A DNA stretch of 64,000 nucleotides, taken from assembly GCA_001972305.1 (NCBI GenBank), contig BDDD01005788.1, positions 1-64,000 on the forward strand. The letters are read 5' to 3'. The position numbers were made by a program, and so were the translations under genes. Shown piece by piece: positions 319 through 60,061 of this stretch (positions within the stretch are counted from its first letter, which is position 1; each line of letters opens with the position of its first letter). The stretch comes from Cephalotus follicularis (Eukaryota > Streptophyta > Magnoliopsida > Oxalidales > Cephalotaceae). The notes under the pieces are model-generated. The model saw only the letters and a list, made by a program, of their open reading frames with translations. It was not told the DNA's origin and did no database searches.

Positions 319-1656
319 TCATTTGAGTAAGTCCTTTGTGTATTTGGATTGGTTGATGAAAGGGCCTTCATTTCCTTGTTGGATTTGAAATCCAAGGAAA
401 TACTTGAGTTCTCCCATCATGCTCATCTCGAATTCACCTTTCATAGTGTTAGCAAACTCAACGCAAAGAGAATCATTAGTAGAACCTAAAATAATGTCAT
501 CTACATAAATTTGCACAATAAGAATATCATTAAGCTTAGTTTTTACAAAAAGATTTTTATCAACTAAGTCTCTTTTAAAATCATTTTCCAAGAGAAATTT
601 TGAAAGCCTTTCATACCAAGCTCTTGGTGCTTGCTTCAAGCCATAAAGTGCTTTTGATAATTTAAAAACATGATCGGGAAAATGCATATTTTCAAAACCC
701 GGAGGTTGTTTAACATAAACTTCCTCATTTATGATACCATTCAAAAATGCACTTTTAACATCCATTTGATGCAATTTAAATCCTTTAAAACATGAAAATG
801 CCATTAACAATCTAATTGCTTGTAACCTAGCTACGGGAGCAAAGGTTTCATCATAGTCAATGCCTTTTTCTCGACTATAACCTTGTGCAACTAATCTAGC
901 CTTATTTCTAATAACCAACCCATTTTCATCCATTTTATTTCGAAAAATCCATTTAGTTCCAATGATGGATTGATTTGTAGGCCTAGGAACTAGGGACCAA
1001 ACATTACTTTTGTCGAATTGGTTTAGTTCCTCTTGCATGGCCACAATCCAATAATCATCTTTAAGAGCATCAAAAATATTTTTGGGTTCAATATTAGAAA
1101 TAAAAGCTACATTATCATAATACTCCCTAAGAGCGGAACGAGTTCTTACCCCTTCGGTAGGATTACCGATTACCTCGTTGTCTTTTACATATTCTCTTTC
1201 TCTTCTTGCTATTGACTCCTTGGTGACTTGAATTTGTTGGATATCCTCTTCATGTGCACCTTCTTCTTCATTCTTGTCAATTTTGACATCTTTTTTGGAT
1301 ATGTCCAAGCCTTCCATTTGCTCCAATATACCTACATCATCAACAATATCTCCCTTTCTCGGAGCACTATTAGACTCTTCAAACAATACATGAATAGACT
1401 CTTCAATAATCACAGTTCTTTTATTAAAGACTCGATATGCTTTAGAATTTAAAGAGTAGCCTAGAACAATTCCTTCATCACTCTTGGTATCAAATTTTCC
1501 AAGATTGTCTTTCCCATTGTTTAAAATAAAAACTTTGCAACCAAAAGGTCTCAAATGACTAACATTTGGTTTTCTATCATTAAAAAGTTCATATGGGGTT
1601 TTCTTTAAAATAGATCGAATCATGACTCTATTTATTATATAGCATGCGGTGTTCAC
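319..1656 (-). pseudogene. pol: copia integrase C-terminus and reverse transcriptase
   Basis: This 445-codon open stretch starts in the integrase C-terminal region (RPFGCKVFILN, then the VLGYS block), passes a linker rich in acidic residues and enters reverse transcriptase. RT landmarks are GTKWIFRNKMDENG, RNKARLVAQGYS, the DVKSAFLNG block with one catalytic Asp, ALYGLKQAPRAWY, and the YVDD catalytic box followed by I-I-L-G-S. It continues into the connection region. The enzyme would copy element RNA into cDNA in cytoplasmic particles. It is not independent: on its 5' side an in-frame TAA after L-P-K cuts it from integrase, and a TGA ends it before RNase H. The domain itself looks well preserved. 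Confidence 0.88.
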
Positions 1657-1671
1657 GGCTTCGGCCCAAAG

Positions 1672-2667
1672 TTATTTTGGCAAATTGTTTTCACAAAGCA
1701 TGGTTCTCCCCATTTCTTCTAGGGTTCTATTCCTCCTTTCAACAACACCATTTTTTTGAGGAGTTCTAGGAGTCGAGAAGTTATGGTGAATACCAAGTTC
1801 ATCACAAAAGTTTTCAAAACCAATGTTTTCAAATTCTTTACCGTGATCACTACGTATGCTAACAATAGATAGACTCTTTTCATTTTGAATTCGTCTAACA
1901 AATTTAATGAAGGATTCTAGAGCATCACTCTTTAAAGCTAAGAAAATAACCCATGTAAATCTAGAATAGTCATCTACAATAACTAAACCATATTGTTTGC
2001 CACCAAGGCTTAAAGTTCTAGTTGGTCCAAACAAGTCAATGTGTAAGAGTTGTAAAATTCTAGTAGTAGAAACAACATTTTTTACTTTAAAGGAAGTTCT
2101 TGTTTGTTTGCCTTGTGCGCAAGCATCACATAATTTATCATTTTCAAATTTCATTTTAGGCAAACCAATAACTAAGTCTTTTCTAGAAAGTTTAACAAGA
2201 ACATCCATGCTAGCATGGCCTAACCTTCTATGCCAAAGCCATTTATCATTAGTATTAGCATTAAAGCACACATCTTTGGAAAACATTTCTTTTAAATAAA
2301 CAACATACACATTTCCTTGCCTATGATCAACAAACTTTACAACATTGGTGCAAGAATCAATAATGTGACAAAGTGAGGACTCAAAATTAACTTTATATCC
2401 TTTATCACATAATTGACTAACACTAAGCAAATTATGCTTAAGGCCTACAACATAAGAAACATTTTCAATTAAAGTATTAAATTTGTTACCTATTGAGCCA
2501 ATACCAACAATTTTGGCTTTGTTGTTATCTCCAAAGGTGACATTTCCTCCATCAAATTCTTTAAGATCAATGAAGAGGCTTTTGTCACCCGTCATGTGCT
2601 TTGAGCACCCGCTATCCACGTACCACGGTTGTTCCTCCTTGTGGTTTGCTTGCAAGCACATTTCCAC
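1672..2667 (-). pseudogene. pol: copia protease, GAG-pre-integrase and integrase core
   Basis: Near the start, W-Y-V-D-S-G-C-S-K-H-M is the aspartic protease/GAG-pre-integrase motif. A GAG-pre-integrase zinc finger follows, with HRRLGHAS (two His) and LCDACAQGKQ (two Cys). The integrase catalytic core comes next: HIDLFGPT supplies the first Asp, SDHGKEFEN the second, and TPQKNGVVERRNRT holds the Glu, so DDE is complete. It ends at an in-frame TAA where other copia proteins read on into WAEAVNTA, which is in fact encoded right after the stop. The upstream junction with gag (about 2668-2690) contains a frameshift. Confidence 0.88.
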
Positions 2668-2689
2668 CTACAAAAACGTCAAAAGATTT

Positions 2690-4381
2690 TCACCTTGGTA
2701 CCCATTGTTTGTTGGGTCCTTTATAGTTACATTTTTGACTAATTGTTCCCTTGGGAACCCAAACTTGTCTAAATGTAATAGGATTGTGATTAGGAGATGG
2801 TCTAGTGTGTGAATGAGAGTGAGCAATCCTTTTAAAACATTTATTCCTAACATGTCCTATCTTATTGCAATATGTACAATGAGGTCTAGTTTTAGTATTC
2901 TTCAACTTAGCCTTAACCTCTAGAGGAGCATACCCTATACCGGTTTTGTCTAAGTACGATTTTTGACTAGCTAGCATCTCCTCTAATTTCTTGCTACCTA
3001 ATGTGAATTTACTTAATGATTTTTCTAAATTCACATTCTTTTCTTTGAGTGATTCTACTTCCTTTTCTAAAGCAATGTCATTACATGAAGTAGTATCCTT
3101 TTTAGCAATGTCATTTTTCAAAAGGGTAAGTTCACTTTTTAGTTTCTCATTTTCAAATACTAACGAGTCCTTCCCATTTTCAATGCTAACCATATTTTTC
3201 TTAAGTGAAGAACATTGTGAGCATTTCTTTTTAAACTCTACAAGCAATTCTTCAAAAGAAAATTGTAATTCACCAAAGGTGTAGGAATCATCTACCTCAT
3301 TGTCGCTTTCTTCATCATCACCCAATGCCATGAAGCAAAGATTTGCAACTTGCTCGGTGACCTCATCATCGGAGGAGTCATCATCACTAAGGTGCCATGC
3401 TTTGAGGGATTTCTTTTTGAAGAGCTTCTTCTTCTTTAATTGTGGACAATCCACCTTGATATGTCCCGGTTTGTTGCATTCAAAGCATGTGGGAGGATCC
3501 ATTTTGCTTCCCTCTCCCTTGTTAAGGTTCTTCTTTTGAAACCTTCTAGCTTTGTTCATCTTTGCGAATTTTGTGAATCTTTTCGCAAAGAGAACGTAGT
3601 CCTCTTCTTCTAGCTCCTCATCACTTGAGATTTCTTCCTTGTGAGTGCTCTTGAGGGATATGTCCTTCCTTATTTCTTCTTGCGGCTTTGTCTCCACAAG
3701 GTTGGAGGATTTCTTGTTTAGCTTTACCTCATGAGTCATGAGGGAGCCAAGTAATTCTTCAATTTCCATAGTCTTTAGATCCTTGGACTCTTCAATTGCC
3801 GTCACCTTGGGTTCCCACTCATCATTGAGACACCCTAGCAATTTCCTAACAAGTTCATCCTTTCCAAAGACCTTGCCAAGACCAAGTAAAACATTAGTAA
3901 TATCAAGCAACCGGTTATATAAATTCTTGATGGATTCATTAGGTTGCATCTTAAAAAATTCATAATCTCTATTTAATAAGGCAAGTTTAGCATTCTTAAC
4001 TTGCTCGGTACCCTCATGTGTGAGGATGAGAAATTTACACACATCATGTGAGGAGGTGCATCTCCTAACTAGATTGTATTCGGTTTTATCTAAAGATACA
4101 AGCAATATATTTAAAGCCTTATTATCTATAGTCAATTTCTTAAAGTCATCCACATCCCATTCGTCTTCCGATTTGGCAACGAGTTCATTTTTATCATTGG
4201 TTTTCATTGGGATGTGAGGGCCATTTTTTACACTAAGCCAATTCTTAAAGTCTCTAGACTTAAGGTAGATTTTCATATGAATTTTCCAATAAGGAAAATC
4301 GTCACCACTAAAGAACGGTACCTTAAATTCGGAGACATCATCATGGTTTCTAGTTTGGTTGTTCATGCTAGTTGAGGCCAT
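2690..4381 (-). CDS. gag: copia gag (nucleocapsid) polyprotein
   Basis: This 563-codon uninterrupted ORF begins at ATG 4381, about 45 bp inside the primer binding site. The N-terminal half is the copia gag core (F-F-S-G-D-D-F-P-Y-W-K, then N-R-L-L-D-I-T-N). A zinc knuckle C-x2-C-x4-H-x4-C is visible at CFECNKPGHIKVDC, followed by a Lys-rich patch and a coiled-coil region rich in Lys, Glu and Leu. A second knuckle, CTYCNKIGHVRNKC, lies near the C-terminus. Two knuckles plus a coiled coil between them fit Sirevirus gag. The protein would package element RNA. It is the only uninterrupted module of this copy; the frame to protease is shifted near 2690. Confidence 0.87.
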   Translation of the reverse strand: MASTSMNNQTRNHDDVSEFKVPFFSGDDFPYWKIHMKIYLKSRDFKNWLSVKNGPHIPMKTNDKNELVAKSEDEWDVDDFKKLTIDNKALNILLVSLDKTEYNLVRRCTSSHDVCKFLILTHEGTEQVKNAKLALLNRDYEFFKMQPNESIKNLYNRLLDITNVLLGLGKVFGKDELVRKLLGCLNDEWEPKVTAIEESKDLKTMEIEELLGSLMTHEVKLNKKSSNLVETKPQEEIRKDISLKSTHKEEISSDEELEEEDYVLFAKRFTKFAKMNKARRFQKKNLNKGEGSKMDPPTCFECNKPGHIKVDCPQLKKKKLFKKKSLKAWHLSDDDSSDDEVTEQVANLCFMALGDDEESDNEVDDSYTFGELQFSFEELLVEFKKKCSQCSSLKKNMVSIENGKDSLVFENEKLKSELTLLKNDIAKKDTTSCNDIALEKEVESLKEKNVNLEKSLSKFTLGSKKLEEMLASQKSYLDKTGIGYAPLEVKAKLKNTKTRPHCTYCNKIGHVRNKCFKRIAHSHSHTRPSPNHNPITFRQVWVPKGTISQKCNYKGPNKQWVPR

Positions 4382-5832: not shown

Positions 5833-6840
5833 GATTAAAAGTAGTTACATTGCTAAAGAAAAATTACAAGGCAAAAGAAAGAAAAATCTACTCTAGCTTT
5901 CATCCCTTGAAGGGATGTCATGTACAATTGGAGAATGAGGCGATGGAGGATCCTCGGCTCTTGGTTCAGAAGGAGGCAGTGGAGGATCCTCAGCCACACG
6001 CTCAAGTAGAGGATCCTCGATCACGGGTTCAGCAGGAGGATCCATAGCCACGGGCTCAAGAGCAGGATCCTCGGCAACTATAAGAGAAAGAGGCTCCACA
6101 TCCAAAGGCTCAAGGTTGGGCTCCTCGGCAGGATCAATGAATGGAACCATATCATGACCCTCAGGCAACCACTCAGGTTCCTGAGCATGACTCTGCTCCT
6201 CGTCATGGGCCCAAATAGCTTCTTCCTCGGCATCATCAACACCCTTAGGAAAGAAGTCGTACCCAGTCACAAAAGGACCACAAATAATGGAGTCCAACGG
6301 AAGCTCCGGATGACATCCGACCATGTTTCGGCAGGTGTAAAATCCCCCAAGATAAAGGACCAATAACTCTTTAAGGACCTCCTTGTTAAAATCATGAGAG
6401 GGCTTGAAGTTGTCCATAGCCTTGGTCATAGCATCCTGAAATTCTGAGGAAGCTCTAAAGTCCTCCACTGCCTGGGCCTGTGCATCTCAAAACTCCGAGG
6501 AAGCCTTGAAGTCTAGGATAGCTCTGTCCACTGCCGCCGCAGTCCGAGCATCCTCCAGCTCATGAAACTTGGCAAGCTTCTCAGCATAAGCATTCAATTT
6601 GTCCTCAAGCAAGACGTTGTGGTGGATTGCAGCCTGCTTGGTCATTTTCTTCATTGCAAGGTCCTTGAGAGCCTGATTCTTCTCGGTAATGATAGTCTCT
6701 TGGACCCCAAGCACTTCCTCTAGTTGAGCACGGGCAATGTCCAATGACTTTTTAAGCTCAGCATTCTTAGCCCCGAGCTGCTCGTTCAAGGTGCTATCCT
6801 CCTCAGATCTATCCATCAGAAGGTGGGCATCGACCATGGC

Positions 6841-6915
6841 CTAAAAAAGAAACATAAAGATTAAAAAGAAGCAAAAGGCTTACTTAAAGGAAAAGGTTGG
6901 GAAGAGCTTACTGAC
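6841..6915 (-). other. Intron 2 of antisense gene, element 1 (75 bp)
   Basis: The minus strand has donor GTCAGTAAG after ...TTCAG-G and acceptor TTTCTTTTTTAG before GCCATGGTC. The interior is T-rich with CCAAC as a possible branch site. The same intron is 74 bp in element 2 and 75 bp in element 3, always phase 0. Confidence 0.7.
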
Positions 6916-7575
6916 CCTGAAGCAACTCTGGAAAAGGTGAGCCCACGTTTGGCTAATAGTCCATTTCTCCCTCACCTCCAACTCATGGGGAAAAAGACCT
7001 TCCTTTCCAAGTTCAACGGGAACACCGGGCGTCTTCAGGTAAACGCCAGACCTGCCGAATGCTCTGAGGATCTCTCTCACTTGCCCAAGCTTTTTCGGAA
7101 GGATATGGGAGGTCAGGGTCCTGGGAGCGCTCCTCGGTAGCTCCAGCCCGAGATGCGTATCCCTCATCTGTCCTCTGCCATCTCAAAGGATGGGCAAGAT
7201 TATCAGCAGCAAGCCTCTTGACACTTGCAATCTCAGCCCTCACCTCCATGGCCTCCTCGGTCATTGCCACCTTGGCATCCTCCGCCATGACCTCTTCGGC
7301 CACGGCCCCGGCTTCATCAACCTCGGCCCTAGCCCTGGTCTCATCGGCCTCCTCGGACCTAATCATGGCCTCCTCTCCCTCGACCCAAGCCTGCTGCTCG
7401 ACTTTGGCCTTAGCGGCAGCTTACTTGGCTATCCTTTTCCTTGTCGCAGCAGCAGTTTTCTCAAAGGCCTTCTTCTTCCTATGAGTTTCTAGCCTTATCT
7501 CCTCGGGATTAGCAGCTCGGGCAGCCTCCCGTCTAGCCCTTACGATATCCATTGTTGTTTCCCGAGATGTCATTA

Positions 7576-13125: not shown

Positions 13126-14330
13126 AAATGGGACACAACAAATGGCATTTCACAATATATATAAATTCAACCCTAACAGACTGGGTTTTTGTCCAGAATT
13201 TAACCGATACGAACAGAAATTGGATGTTTAGGACATACCACTTGGCTTATTTTCTGAATCCAATAACCATTTCAGTAAAACATCATTTGATTTTACAGCA
13301 GAGAAAACTTATTTTTTATGCAGAAAAACTATCATAATGAAATCACATTAGTAAAAATTTTATTAATGTCGTGTCGTGATGCATATGTCATGAGAACCAG
13401 AAAAACAGACTAATAGACAGACAGACAGATAGCCATGTAGGCTCACAAACACAGACCGTACAAGGACACGGATGTCACATATTCGTCCCTCTCTCTCTCA
13501 ATTCCCACGGGAACCTCCTCTTCCAACTCTAGACGGACCCGATGACCCGGGGACATGCTCAGCCCAACTCGGCACAAGCGATCCTCAAAGACCACAGAGC
13601 TCACCTCCTCGGGCGCCAGGGTAGATAGATTCCCCAAGTTTTCCTTCTCAGTCTCGGTCAAGGTTATCCTTTGATTAAGGCGCACGGTATCCAAAGTGTC
13701 ATACCATGGACAGGGAGTGAAGCCGGGGAGATTCTTGACCATGAAATATTCCCCCCTCCATCCCTTTACAGACTTGGTATTCTCCGCCAATAGCCTGTTT
13801 TGACTCGCTTGAGACTTGAAGTAGAAGCCACGCTTGTTTGGAGAGGAATTTACAATGTGAAATTCCTTGAATAGCCCAACTGTGGCTGTCACCCCGGTCT
13901 CCAAGCACCTTACCAAGAAGCCGATGATGAACCCCCGGGACTGAGCTTGGAGCATCGACGGGTGGATTTGGTAATGCCTTAGGATGGTTATGGCAAAGTA
14001 CAACAAATGAAGCCTAAGTCCGTGCTCCAGAGCATCCAGGAACACTACAAAGTAACCGGGCTTGCTCTCCGTGACCACCTTGGGGTCATTGGGAATCTCA
14101 TACTCTAGACTGTTGGGGAAGGAGTATTCCTTGACTAGCTCCCCCACCTTCCTCGGGCATAGTTTGCTCTGGTCAAAATTGGTCCTAAAAACTTGGACCC
14201 CAGCCTCGGTTGATGCAACATTGGGAGCACCTGCAGTGTTGGCCTCCATCTCCACCTCGGTATCAAGGGGACGCTCACCTATGGTAACCCCGGCCGATGC
14301 CCTGGTTACCTCCTCGGGATTCCTAATAAA

Positions 14331-14357
14331 CCTCTTGGTTTGTTTAGTTCTAGCCAT
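14331..14357 (-). other. Histone H3-like N-terminus codons, element 1
   Basis: These nine codons read MARTKQTKR. The ATG has G at -3 and G at +4, a favourable plant start context. In-frame upstream codons, including an ATG at 14414, encode sequence not shared with elements 2 and 3, so this ATG is preferred. Confidence 0.8.
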
Positions 14358-14575
14358 TGCAGTTGTAGAGAGAGAGAGACAAAGATATGGTGGATGAGAA
14401 AAAATCTTCAGGAACATAAACAGAAAGGTAAGAGCGAGCAAAGAAAATCAGTTTACCTGGGATTTTTGGTGCAGAAGAAACAAAGAATAGATTGGGTTTG
14501 AAGATTGAAAAAGCGGAGAACTATCTGAGTTTTAGAGAGCAAGGAAACGTAAAGAGATTCTCACCGAGAGAGGGG

Positions 14576-18184: not shown

Positions 18185-18780
18185 TAATATGAAAAAAATT
18201 CTTTTTTTAAGCATAAGGACACGTGCCTCCTGAAAAAGACGACAGATATCATTCCAAAGCCTGGGCACGTGGCCTGGTACCATGTCAAAAAGGCAACAGA
18301 GGCCACCAAACCCATAGACGTGCACTCCACCATATCAACAAGGCAACAGAGGCCACCAAATTCATAGGCGTGCACGCCACCACATCAACAAGGGAAAAGG
18401 CCACCTAATTCGGCAGAGATCATGGGAAATGCCTCTACTCCCTAGGTATTTTCCTTAGGGGCAACCACCAACTCCTGATTGGACGCTCAACAGTTGCATT
18501 GGAGATCTATAAATACTAAATCAAACGACTTCAACAAGGTCAGCCATTTTTGCACTCTAAAGAACCTAGCTTTCTCTGTGCAATTACTAACTAGAGCGTT
18601 CGAGTATCCCCGGGAGAACAACCTCCTGGACCTTCTACCCTTGTCTTTCACTTGTGTAGGGATCATCAATCACCAAACACTCTTTCTCGGACATATTCCA
18701 GCGTTTCTATAAACAAATCAAGCCCTTACACGTGGGTAACTGTTGATGTAACTGTTGAAGGAAGGATTTCTGCATCAACA
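18185..18780 (+). repeat. 5' LTR of Tat-like element 2
   Basis: 596 bp, ending GCATCAACA before the primer site. The start reads TAATATG rather than the TGATATG of the 3' LTR (one G-to-A change). It has two copies of a 50-bp tandem unit (ggcaacagaggccaccaaac...) at about 18294-18393, where the 3' LTR has three. TATAAATA lies at 18508-18515. About 95 bp downstream, CCCGGGAG-AACAAC-CTCCTGG can form a stem-loop that recurs in related LTRs. Confidence 0.9.
18508..18515 (+). promoter_or_regulatory. TATA box of the Tat-like LTR
   Basis: TATAAATA is conserved at the same place in every LTR of the three related elements (15156, 31816, and on the minus strand 34580 and 45008). It is the likely core promoter for the sense gag-pol RNA. 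Confidence 0.75.
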
Positions 18781-20599: not shown

Positions 20600-22987
20600 T
20601 GATAAGCATAAAAATGTGTGATTTAAAATGATTTATTTATTATATTTTTATGCTTGGAATAGACTACTGTGGTGGTATTTATTTGATTTTCAGGTATTAT
20701 TTAATTATTGCGGGATAAGCGAAAATGGTGCTAAAACGCTACTTTTTGAGTTAAAGTGGTTTGAAGTCAAAAATTGGTTGAAGAGCATATCCACTTAAGC
20801 GAGAGAAGTCAAAATTTAAGACTCCGAAGATATTGAATATTGGGCTCATTTTGTTCATAAAATTATTTGGAGCATTTTTAGTTCTTGGGCTGACTCATTT
20901 TGAAGATCCGACGAAGAGATATTGCAAGAAAATAAATGTTGAAGCATGTGGAGCCCACTGATTACATAATCATGACATCACTCTCCAATGTTATAATCTT
21001 TTGCTGTGTAAATGCAACCATTCAATTTCTGCAGAATTAACGCCTCCATGCATACAACATCAAGCAGCCCATGCACATGCGCCAGTGTCTTCAGTCCAAT
21101 TAAAGCTCTCCATGCATCACACGCCCATACATGCGGGCCAACCAATCAATGCTCGCCGAGCCCATGCACACCATGATGATGTCTTCAATCTTGTAACGCA
21201 TCAGCTTACATTCAACAAAGCAACCCATGAAGCCTCATTGCAAAACGCCAAAATTACTCGCCAAGCCCATATACGCATGCATGCTTTAATTAAACGCCAC
21301 GAAAGCAAGCGCCCAGCATCCACAAATCAGTCCATGCATTTCATGCTTGCAACATGCGCCTCACCAATCAAAGTCTGTGTCAAATAAGGAAAAAAATCAT
21401 GGGAGCGCCACACGTTTTAATTTATGTTTTAGGGTAAGTCGGTTATATATATACCATTAAGCAAAGCAGTAAAGGGAGAGCAGCAGCTGCAACGCAAATA
21501 GACGCAGAAAATAACGCACGCAGTACGGCAGGGGCAGTGGAAGGATGAAGAATTTATTGAAGATTATTGTAGCTTCCGTCGTCATGTCCGGCTAAGTATT
21601 TTAATCCCTAGATGTAGATGAACTCATGTTATATATATATTAATTTTGGTTTCAAGTTTAATTGCATGTTTGTGAGACAATTTTTCTTGTTAATGTAGTG
21701 ACAACGTTGATGAGAATAATTTTCAATTTATAAAATCTGTGTTAATGACATGCAATATTTTTTTTTTATGTGATTGAACCAATGACAGCCTTTAACCAAT
21801 CAACCTTTTGAGAGTATCAGGGTTTGACAGGATAGGTTGTACCTAGGCTAAATCATCAGCTTTCATTCAACAAAGCAACCCATGAAGCCTCATTGCAAAA
21901 CGCCAAAATTACTCGCCAAGCCCATATACGCATGCATGCTTTAATTAAACGCCACGAAAGCAAGCGCCCAGCATCCACAAATCAGTCCATGCATTTCATG
22001 CTTGCAACATGCGCCTCACCAATCAAAGTCTGTGTCAAATAAGGAAAAAAAATCATGGGAGCGCCACACGTTTTAATTTATGTTTTAGGGTAAGTCGGTT
22101 ATATATATACCATTAAGCAAAGCAGTAAAGGGAGAGCAGCAGCTGCAACGCAAATAGACGCAGAAAATAACGCACGCAGTACGGCAGGGGCAGTGGAAGG
22201 ATGAAGAATTTATTGAAGATTATTGTAGCTTCCGTCGTCATGTCCGGCTAAGTATTTTAATCCCTAGATGTAGATGAACTCATGTTATATATATATTAAT
22301 TTTGGTTTCAAGTTTAATTGCATGTTTGTGAGACAATTTTTCTTGTTAATGTAGTGACAACGTTGATGAGAATAATTTTCAATTTATAAAATCTGTGTTA
22401 ATGACATGCAATTTTTTTTTTTTATGTGATTGAACCAATGACAGCCTTTAACCAATCAACCTTTTAAGAGTATCAGGGTTTGACAGGATAGGTTGTACCT
22501 AGGCTAAATTACTAGTTTGCTTGTATTAATCAAAAACAGTCTTTAACCAATCAACCTTTTGAGAGTATCAAGGTTTGACAGGATAGATTGTACCTAGGTT
22601 AATTCGGTAAATTTCTGAGCTAAACTGAAACTTGTGCCATGAATTTAAATATATATATACATGCGGGGATTCTCACATCTACGGGATTGCTGTTTCATAT
22701 TAATTTTCTTATTTATTTATTTTGTTAGTTTACGTTAGATATTTAATTTGAATTGTTTATTTTTTTATTATTAAATTAGTTTAATCCAAATCAATCATCT
22801 TTTCAATTTATTTATTTGTATTGCTAGCTTAAATTAATTTAAATTAGTATTTATTATTTTTGTTTAGTGGCATCCTAGGTTTATTTTTATAGCATCTCAT
22901 TTTAGCTCTTCGTGGGAACGATCCCTACTTCCATTTGCTAAATTGTTAGATTAGGGTAATTTTGATTCGGCCTAACGACACCCATCA
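20600..22987 (+). mobile_element. Solo LTR, Athila-like, inserted between gag and protease
   Basis: 2388 bp with TG...CA ends (TGATAAGCATAAAAATG... ...CGACACCCATCA) and an exact GGTAG duplication at 20595-20599 and 22988-22992. Removing it rejoins gag-pol sequence matching element 3. Near the left end AAGCATAAAAAT and ATTTTTATGCTT form an inverted repeat. The tail with TCGTGGGAACGATCCCTACT resembles Athila-group LTR ends (inference). It encloses a 655-bp tandem duplication. The ORF at 21001-21387 looks like chance. Confidence 0.85.
21200..22510 (+). repeat. 655-bp tandem duplication inside solo LTR
   Basis: Copy 1 (about 21200-21854) and copy 2 (about 21855-22510) are almost identical over their length, including an ATATATATA run and the CGTCATGTCCGGCTAAG block. 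A third, partial copy of about 70 bp (TTTAACCAATCAACC ... TGTACCTAGG) follows at about 22535-22603. Confidence 0.92.
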
Positions 22988-25360: not shown

Positions 25361-26025
25361 TCTATTCTAAGTTCTCATCCCCTGAAGGGATGTCATGCAC
25401 AACCAGAGGAGGAGGAGGATCTTGGAGAGTTGGATCTGTGGGCAAAGGAGGAGAATCTACGGCCACGAGCCTTGGTGAAGTTTCCACGGCCAGGGGATCA
25501 GAGCCAGAGGTCTTGGTGAGGACAGTTGAGAGGGGTTCTACACCTCGGGGCTCAGCGTCAGGCTCCCCGGTAGCTCCAATGAACATGACAACGTCGCGCC
25601 CCTCAGGCGCCCACTCATGGTCCCAGGCTGGGTCCTGACCCTGGTCCGCAGCTTGGAAGGCCCTCTCCTCAGCTTCGTCGACTCCATCGGGGATGAATTC
25701 ATGATCATTTACCTGAGGCCCGCAGATGATAGACTCTAGGGGGAGCTCAGGGTGAAACTCCACCATGTTCCGACAGGAGTAAAACCCCCGCCGAAACAGG
25801 AATGAAGACTTCTTGAAGACCTCTTTGTTGAAGTTCTCTGAGGCCCTGGAGTTGTCTACAGCCCTGGCCATGGCTTCATCAAACTCCGCAGAAGCTCGAA
25901 AGTTGTCCACAGCCCTGGCCATGGCCTCTTCAAACCTCGCAGAAGCCTAGAAATTGTCCATGGCCCTGACCATGGCGTCTTGGTACTCTAAGGAGGCTCT
26001 GAAGTCAAGAACGACCCTCTCCTTG

Positions 26026-28670
26026 TGTTGGAAACTTGGCAAGGGTTCCTGGTTGATTTGATCCTAGGACGCAAGTGTGTATAATTTTAATTTTTTAAAA
26101 TACCAAGACTGAAAGTCATGGTCCACACTTACATCTTAGTACCAAATAGAAAAGCCTAGGATCTCCGTTTAATTAACAAGCGAACTAAAAACAAGAACAA
26201 GCATGCACATAAAGATAAACTGAACACACGTCGGTAACAATAAAAGTAAGAGTGAAGCAATCATACCAACGTTGTAGGCTCCACCACTTTGCCGCTACAC
26301 GCTTACAGTAGCAAATGCCGGTCACTGGTAACACCGCCGGTTTTTGGACAATCCACGTTTCATCCGATCTTGACACCAACAGACTCCAAAAAATCTGCTC
26401 AACCCGAATCTGGAGGAGACACGCCCGGAACAGCGCCGGAACACTGCGGCCAGAGGTGGCGACTCACTGAGTTCGGACTCAGTGAGTCTCGGTCAACTCG
26501 CCATTGACCGGCCTTGACATATGTGGACACCAACACCACGACGAACACACCGGTGGCCGAGACTCGGCCTGGAAGGCAGAGAACGACCGGCGGTGAGTCA
26601 CGGGGTTAACTCGTCATTCGTCATCAGCGGCCGCCAAGCCACCAAACGGCTCAGCGACACCCGCCCGGCACAACCCGACCCAAGACTCGCTGTGACTCAG
26701 CACGGAACGCCAAGTCACAGCAGCCTGACACGTCAACTCGCCCACTTGACTCACCAAACACAAAACGGTCGGAAAACGACCAGGAAACGCAAAACAAAGA
26801 TCAAAATGGATAGAGCCATGGATTGGCTCCACCCACTGTGATCATCGGCGGTGGAAGAGACGCCGGGAGCAGGTGGACGGCAAAAATCGATTCTGCCGCC
26901 ACAGAGAGAAACATGGAGAATCCGGGAGAGAGAGGGAAGGAGACTTACCAGGGAAGGACGCCCGCCTTCTCACAGCCTCCGGCGCGAAGCGCCTGTCTCT
27001 CCTCCGGTCGGATCGCGCGCCCCTGCGCGCCAGACGCCATGCGCGTCTCTCTTCTGCCTAAAGCGTACGAGTCGTGGGTTATAAGATGAAGAAAATGGAG
27101 AGATGGGAGAGAGTGTGAGAGAGATTGAGAGAGAGATTTTTAAAAAATCATTTTTTTGACTTAAAAAAAGTTTTGACTTAATTAAAATTAAGTCTCTCTC
27201 TTATTTCTCTTTTCTCCTTTAATTAAAATCTCTTTCAATTTTAATTTTGTTTCTCCTTTCTCCTTTAATTAAAATCGATTTCAATTTCAATTTTTTTTTG
27301 TTTCTCATACATGTTTAATAATTCTCTCAATTAATTATACATGTTTCTCTCTTTAATGATTTAATTAAAGTCTCTCACTTCAAATAATTAAAGACCCTCT
27401 CTTTAATTAATTTAATTAAAATTAATTCATGCACCGACTGTAAAATCTCTTATACATCAAGATGACTATTAGTAGAACGAAAAACAAACCACTAATGTCA
27501 AAGTAATTTATACTAGTTTAAAAACTAGATTTACCACCAAGCGAGCATGTGTGCAGCATGCGTCACTTTTTCAATAATCAGGCAGGACCCTAAAGCCCGG
27601 TGGATTTTCAATACGATGATAAATTTCCCAGAACATCCCTAAGATCTGGTACGACTATCCAGCTAATAGTCCCGGTGTGATCTATAATCACCCCTGGATC
27701 CGCGGACCACACGTCTATCATTCGTTAACCGGTTCCCTAGTACTTTATCACTATCATCGGTTTGCGTGCCACGTATCCTTCATCATCTCGGCTCCGACCG
27801 CGGACTAGGGTTTGGATAAATGTCACCCCTAGGTAAAACCGCGATAACTATAATTCTATGAATGCACTGAGACTATGGGAAATATCCCCGGAAACCTCTT
27901 ATTCCCAATCTCCCAGTGCCTGGTCAGGACTTTAAGTCTTCAACGGTCACAGATGTTATAGAGCCTATAACCCTCAACACGGGTGTGACAATCCCATCTT
28001 ACGCACTCGCCCATACATCTCAATGCAGCTCCCACAAGGCCCAAAGACAACCCTTTTTCCAGCACGTGGCTAGTGCTGAGGAAGACAGAAATCAAAACCA
28101 AGCAGTTACTACACAACGTATGTCAGCCGCTCAGGTCTAACGATAAACCGTAAATCACGTATGATCTACTAGTCACCTTTGACTAAGCACTACCGTGAGA
28201 ATAGGAACTCTATTGACAGAGGTGTTGACTCTCCAAATAGATAACCTATGGCGGGCCGGTTCAGTGTCGTGCCTCTGCACGCACCCCGCATCAGCTTTAG
28301 GGTAAAACCCAAATGGCAATGAGATGATCCATCATCCTTTACCATTCGGAGCAAGCATAACACGGTAAGTCTTTACGGTTCATCAATTTCCCTAAGAAAG
28401 TGAACCTATTACTTGGAACTTTTGTCACAAGGGAGTAAGGATCTCATTCTCATAACCTCTCAGGCACGAGATCCAACCCTTTACGGACAGGATGCTAACT
28501 GATCCGTAGAGACGGTATGGGATAATACATATACCAAGATGCCAATATTTACTGAATATGCACAATAGAATATTAATGGAACTAAGAATGTACGATTCAA
28601 GAGTGTGTCATATGCTGAGAACATATGTCTGCAGCCTCCTCGTGGCTTGCAGGGACACCCTAATATAACA
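26026..28670 (-). mobile_element. Solo LTR (2645 bp) inside antisense gene exon 3
   Basis: TG...CA ends (TGTTGGAAACTTGG... ...CTAATATAACA) with an exact CCTTG duplication at 26021-26025 and 28671-28675. Sequence on both sides rejoins the antisense gene as seen in element 3. It has no coding domains; the G/C-rich part 26400-27060 with its ORFs and the AT-rich part 27120-27440 match nothing I recognise. Superfamily and true orientation are not determined (strand nominal). Confidence 0.75.
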
Positions 28671-28983
28671 CCTTGGCCGTATTTATCCGGGCTCTCTCCA
28701 GTTCATGGCGCTCCTTAAGCCTCTCATCATAAGCTTTCAGCATGTCCTTAATGAGGGCAATCTTCTCAACTGCCACCAGCCTCATGCTCTTATCCCTCTT
28801 CAGATCTTGGAGGGCTTTGTCCTTCTCAGCAGTGAGGCCCTCCTGGACACTGATCACTTCCTCGAGCTGGGCCTTCAGCACATCCTCCATCTTCTTGAAC
28901 TCAGCATTCTCAGCACCAAGCTGTTCAAGCAGAGACCTCTCCTGGTCAGTCCTCTCCATGGCAAGCTGGGCGTCGTTCATCAG

Positions 28984-29057: not shown

Positions 29058-29794
29058 CTTGAAGCCGCTTTGGAAGAGGTGGATCCATAAGTGGGTGATG
29101 TCCTAGTCCTCTCTCAGCTTCACCTCATGAGGGAAAAGGCCAGCCTTCCCCAGCTCAACAGCGACCCCCGCCGTCTTTAGATTCACTCCGGTCCCGCCAA
29201 GCCTAGTAAGGATCTTAGCAATTTGATCCATCTCTTTGGTGGTGTATACGATGGCAGGGTCCTGGGGGCCCTCCTCAATGGGTTCAGCCCTAGGAGCATC
29301 TCCCCCCTCCGTCCTCTGCCTCCTCGACGGATGGTCGAGATCATCGATAGTAGCCCGCTTTTCCCGGGCAATCTCAGCCCTCTTTTCCTCAGTCTTGGCC
29401 CCAACGGCCATATTGGTCCTAGTCGTCACAGCGACCTCGACCCTGGGGTCCACGATCTTGTCGCTGGTAGCTTTGACCACAGTTTTAGCCCTGGCTTCCT
29501 CGGTCGCCACTGCCCTGGCCCTTGGCTCATCGGCATCCTTTCGAGCTCTCTTCTCAACCCTGGCCTTTGCCTCCTCGGCCTTTCTCCTGGCAGGCTCTTG
29601 TGCCCTGGCCTTTTCGGCAGCCACCTTGGCACCTCCCCTTGGAGCCCCAGCAGCGGATTTCTTAGAGGCCTTCATCTTCACGAGAGTCTCTTTCTTCCGT
29701 GCAGCCTCCCACCTTTCCTCCTCGGGGTTTTGTGCCCTGACTTGCTCCCGGGAAGACTTAATAGCATCCAGAGCTGATTCTTGGCTTGTCATCG

Positions 29795-29892: not shown

Positions 29893-30790
29893 AGCTCTCC
29901 CCTTCAACAGTGCCCGAGGATACAAGTTCACCTCGGATGTCCTGATCCCCCTCTCTCTCGATCCCCACGGGGATCCCCATAGCCAGACCAGGGTTGGCCC
30001 TACGCCTTGGGGCCATGCTCAGCCTAAGATTTCGTAGGTGGATCTCGGACACCACGGTTGCTACTTCCTCGGGGGCAAGTTCCAAAAGCCTCCCCAGGTC
30101 GGTCTTCTCAGTTTCAGACAGCACTGTCCTCTGGTTCAAGCGCACCATGTCCAGGGAGTCACTCCAGGGGCAAGGAACGAAGTCTGGGAGGTTCTTGATC
30201 ATAAAATACTTCTCCCTCCAGTGCTTGACTGTCCTGGTATTCTTGGTCAACAGCCTGATAATCTTTGCACAGGTTTTGAAGTAGTAGCCACGTTTGGTGG
30301 GGGAGGCGTTCAAGAGGTGGAATTCCTTGAACAGCTTCACCGTGGTAGTCGCCCCACACTCCAAGCACCTTGCTAGAAACCCAATTATAAATCCCCAAGA
30401 TTGCTCCTGGAGCACAGAGGGATGGAGCTGGTAATGCTTGAGGATAGCCCTAGCAAAGGGCACCAGGGGAAGCCTCAACCCATGCACCAGGGCCTCTTGA
30501 AACACCACAAAATAGCCCTGCTTGCTCTCTGTAGCCACCTTAGGGTCAGAAGGGATCTCCAAGTCCAGGCTGCCAGGTATAGAGTATTCCCTCACCAGCT
30601 CATCCAGTTTCTTCACATCCATTGTTGTCTTTTCAAAGTCGATCCTAACAACTTGGACTCCAGCCCTCGTGGCCTCAACGTTGGGGTTCCCAGCGGCGGA
30701 AGCCTCCATTTCCACCTCCATGTTGAGGGGACGTATAGTGACAGTGACCCCCGTAGATGCCCGGGCAACCACTTCAGGGTGCCTGACGAG

Positions 30791-30817
30791 TCTTTTGGTC
30801 TGCTTGGTTCTGGCCAT
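30791..30817 (-). other. Histone H3-like N-terminus codons, element 2
   Basis: Codons read MARTKQTKR; ACCATGG gives an excellent start context. Relative to element 1, six of the eight codons after ATG differ, all at third positions and all synonymous. An in-frame ATG 13 codons upstream (MSTSSSS...) has a weaker context. Confidence 0.85.
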
Positions 30818-31017
30818 GGTGTTTTCAGAGAGAGAGGAAGACGAAGTGGACATGGGAAATCTTTGACAAGTAACGGGTAAATGGAAACTGAGTTCACCTG
30901 TGTTCTCGAGCGAAGAAGGAAACAAAGTTTGAAGATTGGAAGAGCAAGGGATTCAAGAAATCTTTTGCTTTTAGGGTTTATGAAAACGTAAAGAGGATCC
31001 CCAAAGGGGGAAGGGGG

Positions 31018-31443: not shown

Positions 31444-32076
31444 TGATATGGAAAAATTCTTTTTTTAAGCATAAAGACACGTGCCTTTTGGAAATGACGA
31501 CAGATGTCATTCCAGGGCCTGGGCACGTGGCCTGGCACCATGTCAAAAAGGCAACAGAGGCCACCAAACCCATAGACGTGTATGCCACCATATCAACAAG
31601 GCAACAGAGGCCACCAAACCCATAGACGTGCACGCCACCATATCAACAAGGCAACAGAGGCCACCAAATCCATAGTTATGCACGCCACCACATCAAAAAG
31701 GGAAAAGGCCGCCTAATCCGGCGAAGATCAGGGGAAATGCCTCTACTCTCGAGGCATTTTCCTTAGGGACAACCATCAACTCCTGATTGGACGCTCAACA
31801 GTTACATTGGAGGTCTATAAATACTAAATCAAACGACTTCAACAAGGTCAGCCATTTTTGCACTCTAAAGAACCTAGCTTTTTCTGTGCAATTACTAACT
31901 AGAGCGTCGGAGTGTCCCCAGGAGAACAATCTCCTGGACCTTCTACCCTTGTCTTTCACTTGTGCAGGGATCATCAATCACCAAACACTCTTTCTCGGAC
32001 AGATTCCAGCGTTTCTCTAAATAAATCAAGCCCTTACACGTGGGGTGCTGTTAAAGGAAGGATTTATGCATCAACA
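31444..32076 (+). repeat. 3' LTR of Tat-like element 2
   Basis: 633 bp from TGATATGG to GCATCAACA, preceded by the purine tract AACCAGGGGGGCATA. It has three copies of the 50-bp unit (about 31541-31690) and lacks a 12-bp GTAACTGTTGAT stretch present in the 5' LTR. TATAAATA is at 31816-31823; the stem-loop CCAGGAG-AACAAT-CTCCTGG is at about 31918. Confidence 0.92.
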
Positions 32077-34327: not shown

Positions 34328-34822
34328 TGTTGATACAAGCATTATTCCTTTAACAGTATCCTACGTGGAGTATTTTGATTTGTTGGAGGAAACGTTGTAA
34401 TATGCCCTAGAAGAAAGATGGAATGGTGATTATCCCTGCACAAGTGGAACGAATACGTTGAAGGTCCAGGAGGTTGTTCTCCTGGGGACACTCCGACGCT
34501 CAAGTTAGACAATGCACAGGAAGATATAGGTTCTTTTGTATGCAAAAATGGTCGACCCCATTAATGCCGTTGATTCTAATATTTATAGGCCTTGATTGTA
34601 AGTACTGAGCATGAGAATCGAAACTAATGTGTATCCCCTAAGGAAATGCCCGAGGATCACGGGCATAACCCTGATCTCCACTGGATTTGGTGCTTGTATT
34701 TCTATTAAACGCAATTCGTTGGTTGGTAACGTCTGACCACGTGCTAGGGTCTCTGAATGACACATGTTTCAATTGCTTGAGGACACGTGACAGAATTTGT
34801 GGGCTAACTTTTACCCACATCA
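34328..34822 (-). repeat. 3' LTR of Tat-like element 3
   Basis: 495 bp; on the minus strand from TGATGTGGGTAAAAG to GCTTGTATCAACA. Preceded by the purine tract CCAGGGGGGTTA. TATAAATA (minus) at 34580-34587 and the CCAGGAG...CTCCTGG stem-loop near 34470 match the other LTRs. Confidence 0.88.
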
Positions 34823-35173: not shown

Positions 35174-36322
35174 CTTCTTCCCCATGATTGGGATTTCTTT
35201 ACGCTTTCTTGCTTTTTAGAAACCCGAGATCTCTTGTCTCTTGCTCCCCTAATACTCAAGCTTAACTTCTTTGTTTTTTTCTTCGCCCAAGCTTTTAGGT
35301 GATTCGATTTCTTCAAACTGTTCTCATTTTTTGTTTAGATCCCCCCAACATTTCACATGTTCACTGCCTCTTCGTCTTCCTCTCTCCGAAAGCTCCATGT
35401 CCAGAATTAAGCAAACCAGGAGGTTGGTTGGACGTCCCGAGGTGGTAGCCCAGGCGTCAACGGGGATTACCATAGATGAGCGTCCCTTTGATATGGAGGT
35501 GGAGATGGTAGCGGCCGCTGCCGGGAATCCCAACGTTGAGGCAACAGAGGTCAGGGTTCAAGTCTTTAGGACCAATTTTGACCGAACCAAAATAGTCCCG
35601 AGGAAGTTGGCAAAGCTGGTAAGGGATTACTCCATCCTTGGCAGTTTAGATTTCGAGATCCCCTCCAATCCCAAGGTGGTCACGGAGAGCCAACCGGGCT
35701 ATTTTGTGGTGTTCCAAGATGCTCTGGAGTACGGATTGAGGCTTCCACTGCCTCCCTTTGCCAAGACCATCCTCGACTATTACCAAATCCACCCCGTGGC
35801 ACTCCAAGCGCAGTCCTAGGGGTTTATAATTGGATTCCTAGTGAGGTGCTTGGAGTCCGGGGTGACCGCCACGGTGAACCTATTCAAAGAGTTCCATATC
35901 TTGAACGCCTCCCCCCAAAAAATGATGTTATTACCTCAAAGCCCGTCTAAGGATGGTCAGGTTGTTGGCCGAGAACACTAAGACGGTCAAGAGCTGGAGG
36001 GAGAGGTACTTCATGGTCAAGAACCTCCATGGCTTCATCCCTTGCCCCTGGAGTGATTCCCTAGACACGATAGGCCTAAACCAGAGGACGACCTTGACCT
36101 CAGCCAAGAAAACTGACCTAGGAAAGCTTCTGGTTCTTGCCCCCGAGGACGTGGCGGTGGTGGTCTTTGAGATCCGCCTGCAGAGCCTTGGGCTGAGCAT
36201 GTTCCCAGGCCGTAGGTCTAACCTGGATTTGGCCGTAGAGACCCCCTTGGGGATTGTGAGAGAGGGGGACCAGGATACCCGAGGTGAACTTGCATCCTCA
36301 TATATCGTTGAAGGGGAGAGTC

Positions 36323-36414
36323 GTACTTTGCTTTCCCCTGCAGTCTTATATTTATTTTTACTTCATTATTTGTTCTTGATGTGTTACTAACCATTTCCTT
36401 GTGATCCCCTACAG
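36323..36414 (+). other. Intron 1 of antisense gene, element 3 (92 bp)
   Basis: Donor GAGAGTC|GTACTT, perfect branch point TACTAAC about 25 bp before acceptor CCCCTACAG|AGATGG. Phase 1; same length as in element 1. Confidence 0.75.
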
Positions 36415-37103
36415 AGATGGAAAATCATGAATCAACAATGGATATTGTCAGGGCTGCCTGGGGACAAGTCAGGGTTATGGACCATGAGGAACAAAGACAA
36501 GAGGCTCTGAGGAAGAAAAAAGCCCTTGAAAGGAGAAGGGACCTTGAAAAAACAACTGTCGGGGCACAAAGGGGGGCCGCCAAGGTGGCTGCGGATAAAG
36601 CCAGGGCTAAGGAGCTTGCCCGGAAGAGTGCAGATGAGGAGAGGGCCAGGGCTGAGGCAGCCGAGGTGCGTGATCCGAAAGATGCCAAGGAGGCAAGGGC
36701 TAGAGTTGAGGTGGACAAGGAAGTTCAGGCCTGGATTGCTAAGGAGGTGAGGGCCGCGGAGGCCAGAGCTTTGGAAACAAGGACCGAGGTTGCTTTGGGC
36801 AAACGGCCTGCTGTTGATGAGCTCGTCCATCCTTCAAGGAGGCAGAGGACAAAGGAGAGAGATGCTCCTAGGGACGAGCCCAAAAAGGAGGGCTCCCAGG
36901 ACCCTGCCCTCACTTACCCTGCCAAGGATATGGAGAAGATCGGCAAGGTCCTCAAAGCTCTTGGCGGGTCAGGGGTGAACCTGAAAATGTCGGGGTTCGC
37001 CATTACGCTGGGCAAGGCTGGTCCATTTCCCCATGAGTTAGAAGTGAGGGGAGATTGGGACGCTTGCCATCTTTGGACTCACCTCTTCCAGAGTTACTTC
37101 AGG

Positions 37104-37178
37104 GTTAGTAAGATTTTTCTAACCTTTTGATATTATTGGATCCTCTATCTTCCTTTAACTGTGCATTCCCCTTTTCAG
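37104..37178 (+). other. Intron 2 of antisense gene, element 3 (75 bp)
   Basis: Donor CAGG|GTTAGTAAG, T-rich interior with TCTAACC, acceptor CCCTTTTCAG|CTCATGAACG. Phase 0. Confidence 0.75.
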
Positions 37179-38123
37179 CTCATGAACGATGTCCAGCTTG
37201 CAATGGAGAGGACTGACTAGGAGAGGGCCCTGCTTGAGCAACTTGGGGCTGAAAATGTTGAGATTAAGAGGCAGCAGGTCGTGCTACTGGCCCAACTCGA
37301 TGATATGATCGGGGTCCAGGAGAGCATTACTGCTGAGAAGGATAAAGGCCTTCAAGATCTGGCGAGGGAGAAGAAGATAAGGCTGGCTACAGCCAACCAA
37401 GTTGATCTCCTTGAAAAGAAATTGAAGGACTACGACGAGAGGCTCAACAAGCACCAGGAACTCGAGGGAGCCCAGACCAGAGCTACCGTGGAGAGGGCCG
37501 TTCTTGACTTCAAGGCTTCCACAGAGTTCTGAGAGGCTGAGGACAGGATCGTGGAGAACTTCAAAGCTTCAGTGGAGTTTCAGGATGCTGTGGACAAGGC
37601 TGTGGACAACTTCAAGGCCTCTGAGGATTTTAACAAAGAGGTCCTCAAGAAGTCCTCGGTCCTTTTTCGCTGGGGATTTTATTCCTATCGAAATATGGTC
37701 GAATACCCTCCTGAGCTTCCGTTGGAGTCGATCATTTGCGGACCCTCGGTGGCAGACTATGACTTTTCCTGAAGGCATCAACAAAGCTGAGGAATAGGCT
37801 TTCCGGGCCCATGACGAGGAGCAAGATCAATCCTTGGACCTAAGGTGGTCGTCCAATAGTCGTGACATAGTTACTTTTACAGCCCCTGCTGAGGAAGAGA
37901 ACCTTGGGACTTTGGACATGGAGCCTGTTTCTTGTATAGTGGCAGAGGACTCAGCTCCTGAGCACTTAGCCGTGGATCCTACTGCATCTATGTCCGAGGA
38001 ACATCATCATGAGTCTATGGCTGAGGGTTCCCCACCTCTACCTACTGATCCAAGGACTGAGGATCCTCCCCCGCCTCCTCCGGCAGAAGAAGATGCTCTA
38101 TCACCTCCTCCAATACTAGAATA

Positions 38124-44774: not shown

Positions 44775-45250
44775 TATTGATACAAAAATCCTCCCTTCAA
44801 CAGTATCCTACGTAGATGACTTTGATTTGTTGGAGGGAACGCTCTAATATGCCCGAGAAGAAAGATTGAATGGTGATTATCCCGGCACAAGTGGAACGAA
44901 CACGTTGAAGGTCCAGAAGGTTGACGTTCAAGTTAGACAATGCACAGGAAGATATAGGTTCTTTTGTATGCAAAAATGGCTGACCCTGTTAATGTTGTTG
45001 ATTCTAATATTTATAGGCCTTGATTGTAACTGCTGAGCGTGAGAATCGGAGCTAATGTATATCCCCTAAGAAAATGCCCGCGGATCACGGGCATAACCCT
45101 GATCTCTACCGGATTTGGTGCCTGTATTCCTATTAAACGCGATTCGTTGGTTGGTAACGTCTGACCATGTGCCAGGGTCTCTAAATGACACCTGTTTCAA
45201 TTACCTGAGAACATGTGACATAATTTGTAGGTTAATTTTTACCCACATCA
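44775..45250 (-). repeat. 5' LTR of Tat-like element 3
   Basis: 476 bp; minus strand from TGATGTGGGTAAAAATT to TGTATCAATA (CA changed to TA). The primer site GTTAGCGCTGTCTGTGGGAA follows at about 44755-44774, a changed TTGGCGCCGTCTGTGGGAA. The stem-loop block present in the other LTRs is partly deleted near 44925. TATAAATA (minus) at 45008-45015. Confidence 0.88.
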
Positions 45251-56579: not shown

Positions 56580-57206
56580 TCAAGTTGGTGTGTGGATATC
56601 TCGCATTCCCAACTTGGAGACAAGAGGATGAAAATCTTTCTTCGTTAAAACTTCAGCTAACTGATCCGTTGATTTCACAAAGGGTGTGCAGATAATGTTA
56701 TTCTCTGATAAAAATCTATCAATCTCGATGCGTTTCGTTCTGTCGTGTTGGACTGGATTGTGAACAATGTTGATCGCCGCTTGATTATTACAGAAAAGTG
56801 TCATAGAGCTTTCACGCGTTATTCCTAGATCATTCAAGAGTTTTTTAAGCCATATCAATTCACAAATTCCTTGTGCTATTGCTCTGTATTCTGGTTCTGC
56901 ACTAGATCTTGACACTACATTTTGCTTTTTGCTTCTCCAAATAACTAAACTGCCACCCATAAATGTGCAATATTCGGAAGTGGATCTTCTATCTACTTTA
57001 GAACCTGCCCAATCTGCATTACTATAGGCTTCTAACTTCAAGTGACCATATTGAGAAAACAGGATCCCTTTGCCAGGAGCAGACTTCAAGTATCTCAGGA
57101 TTCGATGGACTACTTCTAAGTAAAGTGTCCGTGGATCATGCATAAATTGACTAACAATACCTACTGCATAGGCAATATCAGTCCTAGTATGAGACAAATA
57201 TATCAA
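56580..57206 (-). pseudogene. pol: Inner copia RNase H
   Basis: 208 open codons: I-Y-L-S-H-T-R-T-D-I-A-Y, then R-I-L-R-Y-L-K, Y-S-N-A-D-W-A-G-S (catalytic Asp), R-R-S-T-S-E-Y-C-T-F-M-G-G (Glu), S-R-S-S-A-E-P-E-Y-R-A (normally A-E-A-E-Y), F-C-N-N-Q-A-A-I (usually C-D-N, so this Asp is lost), ending with Q-L-A-E-V-L-T-K. Complete in length for the copia domain. Confidence 0.87.
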
Positions 57207-57321
57207 TCTTCCTACCAGTCTCTGATATATCTCCTTATCAACTAAATCATTGCCTCAATCACAAAGACGATGGTCAACCTCATCAGAAAATCTGTAGGTT
57301 TGCAATTACATAAGTGATGGT

Positions 57322-58010
57322 TTACCTCAATAGGAGAATCTGCAGGCCTACACCAAGCATGCCAGTCTCATCATGAAGGTCAAATGCATACTTTCTTTGG
57401 GAGATAAAAATACCGCTATCTGATCTTGCCACCTCAATTCCTAGAAAAATTTTCAATGGACCCAAGTTTTTGATCTCAAATTCCTTGGCCAAGTGAGATT
57501 TGAGCTTGGATACTTCTGCCTCATCATTGTCTGTCATTACTATGTCGTCCATGTAAACAATAAGGGCTATAATTCTTTCTCTGAATCGTTTAACAAACAT
57601 AGTGTGATCTGCTTGACTTTGGTATATTCGAACTCTAGCATAGCCTTGCGAAATCTACCAAAGGAGGATCTTGGAGACTGCTTCAATTCATGCAGGGCTT
57701 TCTTCAGTTTGCATACCTTTCCTTCAATTAGCTGAGATGGAAAACCAGGAGGAATATCTATGTACACCTCTTCCTTAAGCTCTCCATGAAGAAATTCATT
57801 TTTCACATTTAACTGTTGTAGATTCCATCCAAAGTTTACATCACAAGATAGAAGCACCCTAACAGAATTCATTTTTGCTATAGGAGCAAATGTCTCTTGG
57901 TAATCAATTATGTATGTTTGAGTACAGCCCTTTGGAACCAAATGAGCTTTGAATATCTCCACAGTTCCATCTGCCTTTTGTTTTACTGTAAATACCCATT
58001 TACATCTCAC
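57322..58010 (-). pseudogene. pol: Inner copia reverse transcriptase
   Basis: 57567-58010 holds K-W-V-F-T-V-K, A-H-L-V-P-K-G (usually A-R-L-V-A-K-G), F-A-P-I-A-K-M-N-S-V-R, then N-V-K-N-E-F-L-H-G-E-L (catalytic D in DVKNAFLHG is changed to N), E-V-Y-I-D-I-P-P-G-F and L-H-E-L-K-Q-S-P-R. 57322-57600 continues in another frame with the Y-M-D-D catalytic box and L-K-I-F-L-G-I-E-V. A frameshift lies near 57585. Confidence 0.85.
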
Positions 58011-59343: not shown

Positions 59344-59643
59344 GAAAACCCTTTGTTATTTGTGGAAATAAAATGGATATAACTCTAAAGGAGGGATGAC
59401 CCAACCGTTGGTGCCATTGGTGTAGGAGAAGAAGCAATAGGAGAATCTAGATGGTAAAGTCCATTACGTATTCTACCAAAGCCAATCACTTTCCCGGTTC
59501 CCAGCTCTTGAAAAACACAGTGAGTAGACAAAAAAATGAGGAATTAATTTAGTTCCAAGGTTGAACGGAAGATTGACACAAAGATTAGGAACATGAAGTA
59601 TAGAGTTCAATGATATAATAGGAGTACAAGAGACAAACCCTTT

Positions 59644-59985: not shown

Positions 59986-60061
59986 ATGATCCTCTGAACA
60001 AGCATAAATAAATTTACCTCCGCGCCCTTTAGGGCGCCCATACAGCTTCCAGCAAAATTCT

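Follow-up and report, generated by a model that had tools for sequence, protein, structure and literature searches.

Retand elements, a lineage of Ty3/gypsy retrotransposons, have a known build in which an antisense open reading frame (ORF) for a protein with the TRP28 domain (Transposase_28, PF04195) lies between pol and the 3' long terminal repeat (LTR). According to two surveys, all but 2 of 63 recently active Retand clusters encode antisense TRP28 (PMC11963269), the domain was found in 23% of Retand elements in the older of the two (PMC6317226), and DNA binding is predicted for the protein, its role being unknown (PMC11963269). Here we describe three antisense TRP28 genes in a stretch of 64,000 nucleotides from Cephalotus follicularis (contig BDDD01005788.1 of assembly GCA_001972305.1, positions 1 to 64,000; hereafter the window), two of which open with the peptide MARTKQTKR, closely similar to the N-terminal tail of histone H3.

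Histone mimicry has so far been described mainly for viruses and some host factors. The N-terminal peptide of SNAG proteins (GFI1 and the Snail-type repressors) mimics the H3 tail in the LSD1 cleft (PMC5896174), H3-tail mimicry is proposed for the N-terminal tail of Shugoshin 1 (Sgo1) on survivin (PMC12420818), and one survey counted 31 binders of the H3 N-terminus among 123 PHD-containing fusions (PMC6979384).

An H3-like N-terminus on antisense TRP28 proteins

Histone H3 begins with ARTKQTAR (residues 1–8). The minus-strand translation of 14331–14357 reads MARTKQTKR and forms the start of the antisense TRP28 protein of the first element (element 1), and an identical MARTKQTKR opens the homologous antisense TRP28 ORF of element 2 (30791–30817, minus strand). 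In both, ARTKQT and R8 agree with H3, and six of the eight codons following the ATG differ between the two elements, every change being synonymous. Translation and codon comparison thus bear out what a first-pass annotation of the window had read from the sequence. Codons 2–9 are the sole window among 286 in which elements 1 and 2 are identical at eight of eight positions. That annotation was also right in saying that the rest of the protein is not a histone: no histone fold was found downstream of the tail, PF04195 being the only domain found in these proteins. The SNAG domain begins with Pro, and neither the ARTKQTKR seen here nor the PRTKQTKR of a few copies is a SNAG sequence. A third homologous copy in the window, element 3 (35397–35423, plus strand), which the first-pass annotation had overlooked, starts with MSRIKQTRR, A1, T3 and K7 being changed.

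A second H3-like piece, ARASTG, which follows residue 16 in element 2, was dropped as not significant (854 of 5000 shuffles were as good); for a shorter stretch of copy L002 in the same test the figure was 183 of 5000.

We searched the window's own 1.577-Gb assembly with the element 2 protein, which yielded 14,777 first-look candidates, with 122 scored matches among them. Fifty copies were compared, consisting of elements 1–3, seven further loci from this search and 40 fetched starts, 20 of which had the lowest ranks of the matches aligned from residue 1, the other 20 being spread over the rest. ARTKQT is exact in 28 of the 50 and ARTKQTKR in 25, and site by site the H3-like peptide is retained at A1 in 40, R2 in 46, T3 in 47, K4 in 48, Q5 in 44, T6 in 48, K7 in 46 and R8 in all 50. 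A search with the element 1 protein gave 130 scored matches, from which 20 starts were fetched, one of them (L097) without its ATG. In the combined set of 70 copies, three in the window and 67 elsewhere (the 67 coming from matches aligned from query residue 1), ARTKQT is exact in 39 and K4 is present in 67. By clade, the exact ARTKQT occurs in 6 of 14 copies of the element-1 clade, 27 of 48 of the element-2 clade and 6 of 7 of a further clade, and is absent from element 3. Six extra fetched starts, outside these counts, read MARTKQTKR three times and MVITKQTKR, MEKTK-stop-TKG and TARTKQTKR (with ACG for ATG) once each. In 14 of the 122 matches the alignment begins no earlier than residue 4; when all of these were fetched, their starts proved to be shifted, partly deleted or replaced, as in decayed copies.

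Three protein searches gave 12 relatives (P0001–P0012), all annotated as Cephalotus follicularis. Each of the 12 models begins no earlier than an internal Met, which leaves the N-terminus out of the published gene models. IMG/VR contained no relative of the protein, and a search of the PDB by sequence returned a single match at E 0.59, which was not useful. AlphaFold2 models of 15 sequences were too poor for a fold search (mean predicted local distance difference test score 38, predicted template modelling score 0.34, residues 1–69 below 50 on the former scale).

Selection on codons 2–9

When the 14 copies of the element-1 clade are compared to the 48 of the element-2 clade, the proportion of nonsynonymous differences (pN) in codons 2–9 is 0.062 and that of synonymous differences (pS) is 0.801, a ratio of 0.077 where the median ratio is 0.409. 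By pN and by pN/pS alike, codons 2–9 rank first among the 132 eight-codon windows of the first 140 codons, a rank that is descriptive and not a P value, the windows overlapping, the copies being related and pS lying near saturation. Restricting the first 50 copies to pairs whose pS exceeds 0.45 gives a ratio of 0.10 for codons 2–9 compared to 0.25–0.35 elsewhere. The peptide is under purifying selection between the two diverged clades.

Frequency of the motif in the genome

A DNA pattern for M-x-R-x-K-Q-T-x-R has 3785 matches in the genome (1873 + 1912), a count within which genuine H3 genes fall without having been separated, compared to 20 (7 + 13) for the reversed pattern. With K4 left free there are 2702 matches, genuine H3 genes again included, and 13 in the control; of the 100 matches listed, 93 encode Lys at codon 4 (counted by eye). 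Among the 100 matches listed for the full pattern, 87 have A at position 1, 80 have T and 11 have V at position 3, and there is free variation at third codon positions. Residue 7, at which H3 (Ala) and the window elements differ, is the freely varying one (K in 37, A in 20, S in 16, R in 16 and others in 11).

Twelve pattern matches picked for variety at residue 7 were opened, and by tblastn all 12 encode TRP28 relatives. Here the pattern itself imposes positions 2, 4, 5, 6 and 8, and free evidence comes from positions 1, 3 and 7 only. Four of them (L109, L110, L118 and L120) carry ARTKQTAR, that is, H3 residues 1–8 in full; L110, L118 and L120 have S at position 10, and L118 continues with T11. 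The TRP28 family of these last three is nearer to H3 at its start than are the window copies. Lys at position 9 is absent from every copy read in frame. When 11 chosen copies were aligned, identity over codons 10–20 went down to 18% in the worst pair. Four 120-residue starts of distant families gave no match in Pfam; such starts end near where PF04195 begins, and the assignment of the distant families to TRP28 therefore rests on tblastn. The likeness to H3 at this start exceeds chance.

Proposed role and competing explanations

From the conserved peptide we infer a connection to the H3K4 machinery. We put at roughly 0.5 the probability that the peptide mimics the H3 tail and lets a nuclear accessory protein engage H3K4 readers or demethylases; the broader proposal, that thousands of TRP28 proteins use an H3-tail N-terminus to engage this machinery while omitting K9, we hold a little more tentatively. 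The TRP28 domain, whose DNA binding is a published prediction, would hold the protein at element chromatin, where the tail could dock into PHD-type H3K4 readers. Alternatively, the tail may occupy LSD1-type or JmjC-type H3K4 demethylases, or may itself be methylated at K4. The outcome would be that element chromatin stays permissive, or that host factors are recruited. Because Lys is lacking at position 9, the tail would offer an active-type K4 site without a silencing-type K9 site.

A number of observations, set out in this and the following paragraphs, weigh against mimicry. All copies compared come from one genome, that of Cephalotus follicularis. Start-codon context provides a further reason for Ala at position 2. 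By raw identity among the 50 copies, codons 2–9 come only 22nd of 131, their constraint emerging once synonymous change is counted. Against element 3 they match at 5 of 8 positions, and 88 and 100 of the 132 windows do equally well or better. The first-pass annotation had argued for purifying selection from elements 1 and 2; such selection is seen between the clades (rank 1 of 132), but the two-copy argument is weaker than it was put, because MSRIKQTRR in the third window copy breaks the match. In an unanchored local comparison of the first 64 residues with H3 1–40, 146 of 5000 shuffles were as good for element 2 and 1016 of 5000 for element 3, so that the unanchored resemblance of this region to H3 is mildly unusual at most. 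This much would be expected of a chance likeness without function, noticed among the many famous motifs that were looked for. We consider such an origin highly improbable, given the genome-wide enrichment and the selection described above, by which the absence of function is already largely refuted.

Element 3 and further copies drop A1 or T3 and retain the basic residues. This suggests the strongest rival to mimicry, namely that R-x-K-Q-T-K/R-R and the arginines following it make up a short basic tail for nuclear import or nucleic-acid contact, the H3 likeness being ancestral and incidental. In the first sample all 50 copies keep R8 and all 50 have K or R at position 7, and the antisense protein of Grande is nuclear (PMC7264820). 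However, position 7 is A, S, V, T, F or another such residue in 47 of the 100 pattern matches listed. Moreover, a basic tail could dispense with A1, Q5 and T6, so the retention of Q5 (44 of 50) and T6 (48 of 50) in copies that were not selected by pattern counts against it. Overall we judge a purely basic nuclear-targeting tail to be unlikely, though well ahead of the other alternatives.

The motif is also not general to TRP28 proteins. A genome search with PF04195 gave 150 scored matches, of which 20 were sampled by a by-hand spread over about the first 125 ranks, the stretch from 420 to 150 bases upstream being read in each. Eleven, from one younger clade, bear the motif: seven have exact ARTKQT, three have PRTKQT, ARTKQM or ERTKQT (one copy each), and the last is frameshifted. 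For the other nine, from distant families, reading the stretch in three frames revealed no such start. A further distant copy, L075, which came from 20 random 10-kb stretches and is also among the 150, seemingly opens with MSSTSDSQ, as read across unknown bases. Since distant TRP28 families do without the motif, TRP28 proteins do not need it; it marks a broad subset of the families and not all. The expectation that most relatives carry ARTKQ at the very N-terminus is thus upheld in related clades of the same genome and fails in the distant families (nine of the 20 sampled and probably L075).

The first-pass annotation also depended on translation starting at MARTK with no start upstream, and here the two clades differ. 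In the element-1 clade, the open stretch preceding the start is free of in-frame ATGs in all 13 fetched copies (as it is in 14 of all 20 copies fetched in the element 1 search), and the in-frame upstream ATG of element 1 itself, at −60 (14415–14417, minus strand), is absent from these 13. In contrast, in a set of 70 stretches, 55 of them with the MARTK ATG in place and almost all of these from the element-2 clade, an in-frame upstream ATG is present in 50 of the 55. It usually lies at −36 or −42 and would open a Ser-rich peptide; that of element 2 lies at −36 (30851–30853, minus strand) and is common to most copies of its clade. Of the remaining five, four have the upstream ATG in another frame, and in one a stop codon separates it from the start. 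An N-terminally extended form that buries the motif is therefore possible in the element-2 clade, and the peptide could then be internal, accessible or cleaved, with some other role. A Ser-rich opening is also seen in a related clade (for example in L132) and seemingly in the distant L075. We nevertheless think this improbable as the explanation of the motif: besides the 13 element-1-clade copies, the ATG immediately follows an in-frame stop in 5 of the 12 opened distant matches (in 3 there is a further in-frame ATG no more than 60 bases upstream), and 44 of the 55 copies combine A at −3 with G at +4 around the MARTK ATG. Because this context contrasts with the C at −3 of the upstream ATG in element 2, a MARTK start reached by leaky scanning is plausible.

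The sequence around the start codon raises one more alternative to mimicry, in which the DNA is retained for start-codon context or for splicing of a leader intron and not for the peptide. AG stands directly before the ATG, after a CT-rich tract, in 8 of the 12 opened distant matches (L109–L120), a donor-like GGTRAR recurs about 100 bases upstream in several copies (by eye), and R2 is an AGR codon in 99 of the 100 pattern matches listed. A leader intron ending at the start codon is thus possible. As an account of the conservation it seems less probable still than an upstream start, since third codon positions are free while the residues hold and the constraint spans eight codons; the rarity of CGN codons may only reflect CpG loss.

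Anatomy of the elements

The first exon of the element 1 TRP28 gene is an open frame of 304 codons (13443–14357, minus strand) with a PF04195 match of 29.2 bits, over the cut-off of 26.2 bits; by tblastn, homology to element 2 extends to about 13476. The gene is split by an insert running from about 13483 to 7717, beyond which matches to exons 2–4 lie at 7573–6967, 6837–6532 and 6477–5896 (span 5896–7573, minus strand; tblastn with the element 2 and 3 exons). Within the window, neither gag nor pol was detected for element 1. Inside the insert, 7717–9174 matches 12072–10569 and 9168–10576 matches 13483–12072, both inverted and at about 74% identity.

Elements 2 and 3 are LTR retrotransposons. 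In element 2 the 5' LTR match (18194–18780, plus strand) is 84% identical to the 3' LTR match (31452–32076, plus strand), and TRP28 runs antisense to gag and protease; RT (reverse transcriptase) and integrase queries gave no RT or integrase match in it. Exon 1 of its TRP28 gene runs to an inferred donor (29932–30817, minus strand; splice site by eye) and has a PF04195 match of 35.1 bits, also over the cut-off, the first ORF itself continuing past this donor to 29831. Further inferred exons, likewise on the minus strand, lie at 29103–29794 (exon 2, ending at TAG), 28663–28980 (exon 3) and 25365–25922 (exon 4), the last two having counterparts in elements 1 and 3. The interior of element 2 contains a 655-base tandem duplication (21199–22509, 99.4% identical).

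Element 3 has its gag, protease, RT and integrase on the minus strand, between a 5' LTR match at 44777–45250 and a 3' LTR match at 34330–34822 (both minus strand, 86% identical); its TRP28 gene lies on the opposite, plus strand, flanked by integrase and the 3' LTR. The first exon of that gene (35397–36345) was recovered by tblastn in two pieces with a frame change near 35914–35921, the first piece reaching 25.3 bits against PF04195, below the cut-off, and matches to exons 2–4 follow at 36417–38058 (plus strand; tblastn). Given that the LTR pairs are only 84% and 86% identical, the insertions of elements 2 and 3 are old.

Elsewhere in the window, a 578-codon ORF at 49259–50995 (plus strand) is by eye unlike a transposon gene, and minus-strand ORFs at 319–4381 and 56580–60988 resemble, again by eye, Ty1/copia polyproteins.

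Comparison with known systems

The genes described here share with the TRP28 ORF of Retand-lineage Ty3/gypsy elements the PF04195 domain and, as seen in element 3, the antisense position between pol and the 3' LTR; unlike the copies here, TRP28 is presented without mention of an H3-like N-terminus in the available parts of the published descriptions (PMC11963269; PMC7264820; PMC6317226). The literature searched, which left most subscription journals outside its scope, contained no prior report of an H3-like N-terminus on TRP28 or on a transposon protein, and the word 'histone' does not occur in two reviews of antisense ORFs. If mimicry is the correct reading, a transposable element would, to our knowledge, for the first time be seen to encode a mimic of the H3 tail, TRP28 function would gain its first molecular handle, and a retrotransposon would be countering or borrowing the host's reading of chromatin by means of histone mimicry. 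The selected H3 copy at the N-terminus of TRP28 would also provide a direct and cheap hypothesis for the role of this protein.

Sgo1 differs in being a mitotic host protein whose target is tied to H3T3 phosphorylation. SNAG proteins are alike in presenting an N-terminal peptide that mimics the H3 tail and differ in being animal transcription factors; moreover, the SNAG sequence departs from that of H3, whereas six to eight residues are identical to H3 in the elements here. Influenza NS1 is a histone mimic with a short C-terminal match to H3, and so is likewise an H3-like peptide carried by a genetic parasite. Compared to NS1, the match in the TRP28 proteins is N-terminal, covers 7 or 8 of 8 residues and belongs to a plant retrotransposon.
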